From NCBI GenBank assembly GCA_017436345.1, contig JAFSDH010000005.1, positions 1 to 64,000 on the forward strand: a stretch of DNA of 64,000 bases. Reading direction: 5' to 3'. A model generated the notes under the pieces. The model ran no database searches and was not told the origin of the DNA. It worked only from the letters and a program-made list of their open reading frames with translations. This document shows positions 23,636 through 36,676 of this stretch, piece by piece. The stretch comes from Bacilli bacterium (lineage in GTDB: Bacteria > Bacillota_I > Bacilli_A > RF39 > UBA660). Made by a program: the position numbers and the translations under genes. Numbering within the stretch: the stretch's first letter is position 1; every line of letters starts with the position of its first letter.

Positions 23636-24262
23636 TTACTTAGTTCCAAAAATCCTATCCCCGGCATCACCAAGACCTGGAACTATATAACCAATTTCAT
23701 TTAATTTTTCATCAATAGCTGCACAATAAATTGTAACATCAGGATGAACTTCATTAATCTTTTCTATTCCTTCAGGAGCTGCAATAATACATAAAAATTT
23801 TATCTTTTTAGCTCCACTTTCTTTAAGTCTAGTAATAGCATCTACTCCGGATCCACCAGTAGCTAGCATTGGATCAAGAACTATTACTTCTCTTTTATCT
23901 ATATCTTTTGGCATCTTATAATAATACTCTACAGGCTTTAAAGTTTCTTCATTTCGATAAAGTCCAATATGACCTATTTTAGCATTAGGCATAACTTTAA
24001 TTAAACCATCAAGCATACCTGTTCCTGCTCTTAAAATAGGTACAAAAGCATAATTATCATCATTTAACTTTTTACCTTTAGTTTTACACATAGGAGTTTC
24101 TATTTCTATATCTTCTAAAGAGGCATCTTTTAAGGCTTCATAACATAAGATTGTTGAAAGTTCACTAATTAATTCTCTAAACTCTTTAGTACCTGTATTT
24201 TTATCTCTTAAAATACTTAATTTATGAAGTACTAAGGGATGATCTAACTTAATAGCATTCAT
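23636..24262 (-). CDS. upp: uracil phosphoribosyltransferase
   Basis: 208-aa enzyme that makes UMP from uracil and PRPP for pyrimidine salvage. Full family length, with the PRPP-binding motif [13 protein letters not shown], the uracil pocket ending [15 protein letters not shown] and conserved [10 protein letters not shown]. It is 8 bp downstream of the uracil permease gene, so uptake and phosphoribosylation are produced together. Confidence 0.97.
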
Positions 24263-24270
24263 TCTATCAC

Positions 24271-25605
24271 CTATCTTCTTTTATTATTTTTCTTTTTACT
24301 AACCACTTTTTCGTCTACAACAACTTCTTTAGTTTTAGGAAGTAATAGATTTAATAAAATACCTACTATAGCAGCTAAACTCATACCAGTTATTGATACT
24401 GATATATCCCCTGTTTCAAGTGTAAGAATAGCTCCTCCTAAACCAAGTACTAACATTGTTGACGCAACAATTACATTTCTTATATCTTCAAAATTAATTT
24501 GATTTTTTACTAAAACTTTCAACCCATTAACAGCTATAAATCCATATAAAAGAAGTGATACACCGCCTAATACTGGATTTGGTATAGTTGAAAATATTGC
24601 TGATAATTTTCCTAAGAAACCAATACAAATAGCAATTACAGCAGCAAGTGCAATTACCCAAACAGAAGCAACTTTTGTCATACCAACAACACTAGTATTT
24701 TCTCCATATGTTGTATTAGCAGGTCCTCCAAATAAACCAGATACACTTGTTGCAATACCATCTCCTAATAAAGTTCTTTCAAGACCTGGGTCTTTAACTA
24801 AATCTTTATTAATAATTGTACCAAGAGCCATATGATCACCTATGTGTTCAGCAATTGTAACAAGAGCAATTGGTGCTATTGTAAGAAGACCAACTAAACT
24901 AAATGAATAATCCTTAAATGGTAATAAAAACTCTGGCATTGCAAAGAATGATGCATCACTAACAGCTGTAAAATCAACCATTCCTAAACAAATCGCAACA
25001 ACATAACCAGATGCAATTCCAATTAAGAAAGGAATTACTTTTAAAAACCCTTTAGCACCTACTGCAGTTATCGCTGTTACTAAAAAGGCAACTAAAGCAA
25101 CCACAATACTTTTCCATTCAATAACACCACTAGATAATCCCATTTGACTAACCGCACTTGGGGCAAGTGATAACCCTATAATCATAATCATTGGACCTAT
25201 TACTATAGGTGGTAATAATTTATCAATCCAATTCTTTCCAAAAATTTTAATTAACAATGCAAATAATACATAAATTAAACCTGCTGCAATAATACCAGTT
25301 GCAAAACCTGAAACCCCATCTTTCGCAAATGCTACAATTATCGGTGTAATATATGCAAAAGAACTACCTAAATAAACTGGAGATTTTCCTTTAGTACATA
25401 AAATATAAATTAATGTACCAATCCCACTCATAACTAAAGCAACTGGTATAGTAAGAACAGTTGTACCTGCTGCTTCATTAACTAATAATGGAACCAATAT
25501 TGTTGCTCCAAACATTGCAAAAACATGTTGAATAGCTAATATGAACCACTTACCTGTACTAGGTCTTTCATAAGTGTCATAAATTAAATCTGTTTTTTCT
25601 TTCAT
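24271..25605 (-). CDS. uraA: uracil permease (NCS2 family)
   Basis: 444 aa, a nucleobase:cation symporter with about 12-14 TM segments. Signature segments: [14 protein letters not shown], the conserved [14 protein letters not shown] (the functional Glu/His region of UraA) and [18 protein letters not shown] at 25605 follows AAGGAGGAG; the upstream in-frame ATG has no RBS. Basic C-terminus KKKNNKRR. Cotranscribed with upp behind a leader attenuator. Confidence 0.95.
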
Positions 25606-25642
25606 TCTACTCCTCCTTCTAAAAACAGTTGGCATTAATTAT

Positions 25643-25674
25643 AAAAAAAAACATCAATACCAAAGTATCAATGT
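25643..25674 (-). terminator. attenuator terminator upstream of uraA
   Basis: ACATTGATAC-TTTG-GTATTGATGT (ten pairs, two wobbles) followed by nine T on the minus strand. It starts right after the leader-peptide stop and lies 38 bp before the permease start, so it must be bypassed for expression. Confidence 0.8.
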
Positions 25675-25758
25675 TTATTTAATAATTAATAAAGATGACA
25701 AAGAAACAAAAGAAATTCTTTTTCTTAAACCAATAACTTCTCTTCTTGTCTTCATCAT
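25675..25758 (-). CDS. 27-aa leader peptide of the uracil operon
   Basis: MMKTRREVIGLRKRISFVSL... ending LLIIK, with GGTGATAG ahead of its ATG at 25758. Codons from Ile15 to Leu24 are very U-rich (TTTCTTTTGTTTCTTTGTCATCTTT is read in this stretch), and the stop is next to the attenuator hairpin. This is the pyrBI-type arrangement, where low UTP slows polymerase on the U-tract so a following ribosome prevents hairpin formation. No PyrR-binding loop was seen. Confidence 0.55.
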   Translation of the reverse strand: MMKTRREVIGLRKRISFVSLSSLLIIK

Positions 25759-25899
25759 ACTATCACCATAATAATATTAGCACACTTAAGAAATAGTTTC
25801 AATATTATTCTTCCATATTACTAATAAAAGATATTTAAACTGTTTCTAATTAAATCTAAGAAAAAATAACTTTGTACATTTATTTTATTACATTTATAT

Positions 25900-36567: not shown

Positions 36568-36676
36568 AATTATCTTTTATTAAGAACGAGGGAGAGACTA
36601 AGCTCAATGAACTCGTACCAACCTGCAGAAGTAAGGTGGTAAAGCTAGACCAATGAAGGAAAGAACTAGATAACTT
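36568..36676 (+). ncRNA. SAM-I (S-box) riboswitch
   Basis: Upstream of metK. P1 pairs TTATCT (36570-36575) with AGATAA (36668-36673). The core contains AAGAACGAGGGAGAGACTAAGCTC, AATGAACTCG, ACCAACC and TAAGGTGGTAAAGCTAGACCAATGAAGGAAAG, which closely follow the S-box consensus. SAM binding favours the terminator at 36679-36705, so metK is off when SAM is plentiful. Confidence 0.85.

Follow-up and report, generated by a model that had tools for sequence, protein, structure and literature searches.

A translated leader ending at an intrinsic terminator ahead of uraA-upp in uncultured Bacilli: a probable UTP-sensing attenuator of uracil uptake

Control of pyrimidine genes in Bacillota is usually exerted by PyrR and its RNA element, and PyrR attenuation sits ahead of pyrimidine genes including that for uracil permease. 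The locus described here, in which a short reading frame runs up to a terminator just before a uracil permease gene, raises the question of which signal decides whether the permease is transcribed. It was found in an uncultured gut bacterium (Bacilli bacterium, GCA_017436345.1, contig JAFSDH010000005.1); the window, meaning the whole stretch of DNA that was analyzed, covers positions 1-64,000 of this contig. An earlier note on the window had proposed a leader peptide and attenuator like those of pyrBI. We favor, with a probability of about 0.72, a transcription attenuator of the pyrBI/pyrE kind that is coupled to translation, senses UTP and governs uracil uptake and salvage.

The minus strand carries, in this order, a promoter, a Shine-Dalgarno sequence (SD), a 27-codon ORF, an intrinsic terminator, uraA and upp (Table 1). 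Re-reading of the sequence confirmed the coordinates given in the earlier note for a 27-amino-acid leader with its stop at the terminator before uraA. The leader starts with the ATG at 25758, and its TAA (25677-25675) abuts the 5' arm of the terminator stem. That stem, ACATTGATAC/GTATTGATGT, contains two G-U pairs, and the run of nine T extends from 25651 to 25643, its first T belonging to the stem. The stem length, the T run and the spacing to uraA had likewise been described correctly, the uraA ATG at 25605 lying 37 nt past the T run; this frame is also open from an ATG at 25635, and the SD fits 25605. With two G-C pairs in its stem, the leader terminator was missed by a generic terminator scanner, which requires three. 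The T content of the leader ORF was 21% in the first half and 60% in the second, in agreement with the U-richness noted earlier. The uraA product matched the NCS2 family above cut-off (TIGR00801), and among the equivalog models uracil permease scored best, at 406 bits with a cut-off of 477. The upp gene is presumably on the same transcript.

Table 1. Features of the leader-uraA-upp locus in the window
Feature	Position	Strand	Basis
Predicted sigma-A promoter of leader-uraA-upp	25774..25802	-	Promoter scan: TTGAAA, N17, TG-extended TAATAT
Leader SD, GGTGAT	25762..25767	-	Sequence; SD-preceded leaders also in relatives
Leader ORF, 27 codons, MMKTRREVIGLRKRISFVSLSSLLIIK and stop	25675..25758	-	ORF list; position kept in relatives, peptide not
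Predicted hairpin within leader	25697..25756	-	Folding; purine-rich 5' half of ORF with U-rich 3' half
U-rich tract, proposed UTP-dependent RNA polymerase pause site	25678..25715	-	Base composition
Intrinsic terminator (attenuator)	25643..25674	-	Ten-pair stem, TTTG loop, nine U
uraA SD, AAGGAGGA	25611..25618	-	Sequence
uraA, NCS2 family uracil permease	24271..25605	-	ORF list; TIGR00801 above cut-off
upp, uracil phosphoribosyltransferase	23636..24262	-	TIGR01091 above cut-off; 8 nt downstream of uraA

Another terminator (AGACAACATATATATGTTGTCT-TTTTT, 26413-26392, minus strand), located just 3' of a glycosyltransferase-like gene (27244-26426), precedes the leader, which therefore needs a promoter of its own. 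The predicted transcription start region, TATTATGGTGATAG, holds no homopolymer run of the kind on which reiterative initiation control (codBA, pyrG) depends, the start itself being only predicted. Promoter, SD and start recur in nearly identical form (TGTGCTATAAT...GGTGATAGTATG) ahead of another gene at G000:C1:78723-78754, with the same TG-extended -10 and GGTGATAGTATG layout as at the leader promoter, which suggests a common short-UTR promoter design in this genome.

The earlier note had proposed that homologues be searched for the leader ORF. For this comparison uraA loci were drawn from the same family and order, together with named genome contigs (records of uncultured Bacilli, Clostridia and Erysipelotrichales), and a leader was required to have 20-60 codons, an SD and a stop codon within -8 to +12 nt of the stem. 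Such an ORF, starting with ATG or GTG and ending at the terminator, was present at 60 of the 83 uraA loci with a strong upstream terminator, compared with 1.4 of 83 expected by chance from dinucleotide shuffles of the 5' part. The arrangement is not due to chance. Many of the remaining loci had the same ORF with a weaker SD or with the stop slightly deeper in the stem. Among 19 further loci of the family, 16 leaders were recovered automatically and the other three (L114, L124 and L129) were visible by eye. Predicted -10 elements in the relatives usually end 16-20 nt upstream of the leader ATG, an assignment that is uncertain in some loci. All p-values in this study are optimistic because the loci share descent.

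Proximity of stop codon and terminator as the sole proof of a leader was weakened by control gene ends. In more than half of 82 such ends the stop lay over 10 nt upstream of the terminator, but in 37% it fell within -8 to +12 of the stem, so that proximity alone proves nothing. With the permitted range widened to -80 to +45 of the stem, a leader was detected at 86 loci, and all of the stops were still found between -8 and +29. Outside uraA, 918 kb of sequence, with the two strands of every locus counted, held three cases of the same arrangement, and a scan of the window found the order SD, ORF, terminator and gene only before uraA. A DNA similarity search with the leader alone returned no homologous leader in the genus, as leaders diverge too fast.

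No leader was found at three uraA copies (L008, L009 and L020). One genome, G016, has two uraA copies that are 68-70% identical to the query, L021 with a leader and L008 without. At L017, some 200 nt upstream of position 1501, the leader peptide is replaced by a gene resembling that for ribosomal protein S18, whose end lies directly at the terminator preceding uraA; this may be a coincidence. The pyrB gene of G024 (L103) had no such leader upstream.

At 75% nucleotide identity the 60 leaders formed 41 clusters, and no peptide was common to the clusters. What is kept across leaders is the SD, the predicted promoter spacing, an A-rich first half, a U-rich second half and a stop at the terminator. 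U made up 47-62% of the last 50 nt upstream of the stem in leaders, compared with 24-34% at 83 gene-end terminators from these loci (p 3e-15). Whether a hydrophobic peptide explains this U was tested with uraA, likewise encoding a membrane transporter, as the codon-usage control. In the second half of the leaders 399 codons ended in U, compared with 345.6 expected for the same amino acids, whereas the first half gave no excess (185 and 203.5, respectively); the excess of U per codon was significant when calculated per locus (p 2.7e-6). For valine, GTT was used in 46 of 63 leader codons and in 41% of those in uraA, and the third-position excess extended to Val, Ala, Ser and Thr. The leaders thus hold more U than their amino acids call for, and selection seems to act on U itself. 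Of 40 leaders, 34 contained TTNTTT, the pause motif of NusG, as did 21% of controls; selection of this motif beyond T content was not supported, with 77 occurrences compared with 102 in shuffles. Thus the pyrBI-like interpretation gained support from the comparison, as homologues keep the leader ORF and its U-richness but not the peptide.

Folding of 40 leaders was more stable than that of shuffles keeping local composition (mean z -1.31, p 2.7e-9), and the leader of the window gave z -2.0. Plain dinucleotide shuffles gave no folding signal (mean z 0.0) because they destroy the A-to-U asymmetry that block shuffles retain. A short perfect hairpin exceeded the threshold in 24 of the 40 leaders, mostly with a U tract directly after it (combined p 3e-8); the window's own leader was below this threshold and has a longer imperfect hairpin. 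Covariation in clade A1 was weak, with just three pairs showing compensatory change. Between the leader and the terminator's 5' arm no pairing beyond chance was seen (combined p 0.96), indicating that there is no classical antiterminator.

No PyrR protein scored above the family cut-off in this genome and 12 uraA-bearing relatives, all of one family; where there was any match, the best scores were 19-34 bits compared with a cut-off of 138. A covariance search of the window's leader was also negative for the PyrR RNA element, in agreement with the earlier note, which had seen no PyrR loop, and neither this leader nor 12 other loci contained a riboswitch or T-box aptamer or a relevant Rfam family. 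The locus resembles PyrR attenuation in having an attenuator before pyrimidine genes but differs from it in that neither the protein, above cut-off, nor the RNA element was found. Elsewhere in the window, at 36574-36659 (plus strand), a SAM (S box) riboswitch scored over the gathering threshold and was accompanied by a terminator-like hairpin, and 3' of the riboswitch an ORF from about 36729 has an N-terminus resembling S-adenosylmethionine synthetase. Aspartate carbamoyltransferase (pyrB) was not found in this genome and was above cut-off in one of 13 family genomes, so that these cells probably live on imported uracil and salvage is probably essential to them.

The features of the pyrBI/pyrE type, namely a terminator before a pyrimidine gene, an SD-preceded frame reaching the terminator, a U tract and no need for an antiterminator, are present together in the sequence. 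In the mechanism that we propose, the closeness of promoter and leader SD would let a ribosome load almost at once, and RNA polymerase would next traverse the U-rich part of the leader, its second half. At low UTP the polymerase would pause in the U tract, and the hairpin upstream and a B. subtilis-type NusG may assist this pause; the ribosome would then catch up to the stop codon at or on the 5' arm and block the terminator hairpin, and uraA-upp would be transcribed. When UTP is plentiful, the polymerase would clear the tract before the ribosome arrives, the terminator would fold and transcription would end. Whether the ribosome keeps pace would depend on polymerase speed in the U tract, and therefore on UTP. 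From the layout of the parts we infer the UTP-dependent pausing, the dependence of the switch on UTP and the blockade of the terminator by the ribosome.

The position of the stop codon is known to matter in E. coli, where moving it from 28 to 5 bp before a terminator lowered termination from about 90% to less than 10%, an effect that was lost once translation was uncoupled (PMC4824070). RNA polymerase runs ahead of the ribosome in B. subtilis, where terminators are placed only a few nucleotides beyond stop codons (review, PMC7858274); control of the pyrBI type should therefore be difficult there. Either transcription and translation are coupled in the present lineages, or the ribosome would need a polymerase pause in order to draw level; in B. 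subtilis tlrB such a pause depends on NusG and synchronizes polymerase and ribosome (PMC6851288). The NusG encoded in the genome of this bacterium has R80-N81-T82, like the B. subtilis-type chain in the PDB match, and residues N81 and T82 have been reported to read T-rich pause motifs (PMC12288461).

The same anatomy, and the same NusG residues, would suit a translation-dependent attenuator that reads ribosome supply or the general rate of translation and not UTP, comparable to tlrB of B. subtilis (PMC6851288). Such a general sensor should precede unrelated genes too, whereas uraA and one upp are almost the only genes with this arrangement, and the U excess beyond amino-acid need does not fit it either; we regard this reading as unlikely. 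The stability of the leaders, and pairing of the SD with the U-rich strand in L010, L029, L049 and L063, could instead point to a leader that also hides its own SD, so that a fast polymerase would complete a fold-back hairpin, no ribosome would load and the terminator would form. Accessibility of the SD in 40 leaders was, however, 0.39 in the full leader and 0.41 with the downstream part shuffled (p 0.60). Fold-back hiding of the SD is thus not supported as a general feature, and as an account of the switch it is very improbable.

Sensing of an amino acid is also hard to reconcile with these data. Every representative leader has at least one Phe codon in its second half (mean 3.2), as Phe-dependent attenuation would need, yet stalling of a ribosome upstream would not keep the terminator from forming, no antiterminator was found, Phe has no connection with uracil import and the U excess also involves Val, Ala, Ser and Thr; there is hardly any likelihood left for it. 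Action of PyrR, a riboswitch or another RNA-binding regulator on the leader would be in keeping with the folding of the leaders and with the usual role of PyrR in Bacillota. Against it stand the lack of PyrR above cut-off in 13 genomes and of a relevant Rfam match in 13 loci, the clusters without common sequence and the missing antiterminator, and the chance that such a regulator operates here is slight. Finally, promoter, SD, short ORF and terminator together have the normal look of a small protein gene with its own terminator, unconnected to uraA. The peptide is not conserved, however, its place before uraA is fixed, its U bias exceeds amino-acid need, and the promoter scan of the window lists no promoter-like site from the terminator to the uraA ATG, all of which makes an ordinary small gene a most improbable explanation.

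As a UTP-sensing coupled attenuator, the locus can be compared with known systems. E. coli pyrBI with its leader pyrL has the same parts in the same order, with a translated leader, an internal hairpin (GCGTC..GACGC in pyrL), a U run (GTTTTTCTT), an intrinsic terminator and a pyrimidine gene. The pyrL frame is longer, however, with 44 codons, and continues for 47 nt after the stem begins, whereas the uraA leader stops at the 5' arm. The pyrBI gene encodes aspartate carbamoyltransferase, while the gene here encodes a uracil permease in a host from Bacillota; no sequence similarity was seen and no resemblance between the leader peptides was visible, and convergence appears likely. In E. coli rph-pyrE (Bonekamp et al. 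1984), the upstream frame reportedly ends just before the terminator and attenuation is said to be modulated by UTP. The likeness to pyrBI claimed in the earlier note thus stands for the overall type, but with its stop at the base of the terminator the leader is closer to rph-pyrE, as so described, than to pyrL. The upstream frame of pyrE is the full rph gene, while here it is a dedicated leader of 20-50 codons. B. subtilis tlrB (yxjB) is alike in having a Gram-positive leader peptide and a ribosome that, synchronized by a pause, blocks the terminator, but it responds to tylosin through a stalling peptide motif (PMC6851288), whereas the uraA leader peptide is not conserved and its target is pyrimidine salvage.

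A clear leader was also found at one of 11 stand-alone upp loci (L133 of G064, a family genome without uraA), L170 being a poorer candidate. The L133 leader (1307-1495) is a U-rich ORF of 62 codons starting with GTG that runs through the terminator and overlaps the upp start; crossing the terminator and ending at the start codon of the gene is the arrangement of E. coli pyrL. At L165 and L173, the stand-alone upp (at 1489) begins 15-22 nt past a terminator, and right before this terminator a longer gene ends whose last part is rich in U; here a normal gene may serve as the leader, in the manner of pyrE.

In open-licence papers we found no description of a leader of this type before a uracil permease, which is weak evidence of novelty, and no report of a pyrBI-type UTP gauge in Gram-positive bacteria. 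The suggestion in the earlier note that such a leader is unusual in Firmicutes agrees with this, but it is not an oddity of one genome, being widespread in uncultured Bacilli and Clostridia. Judged from these genomes, a UTP-sensing coupled leader for uracil uptake is probably both widespread and convergent in Bacillota without detectable PyrR. The chances are about even that a ribosome-coupled UTP attenuator, independent in origin of the proteobacterial ones, has become the standard means by which uncultured Bacilli and Clostridia regulate uracil uptake, taking the place of PyrR in those that lack it. Descriptions of pyrimidine control in Gram-positive bacteria usually center on PyrR, and these leaders would add a coupled alternative. 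If the proposed mechanism is true, the dozens of leaders with the same layout would mean that factor-free coupled sensing of UTP works in Bacillota, and they would serve as ready-made reporters for where coupling of transcription and translation holds.
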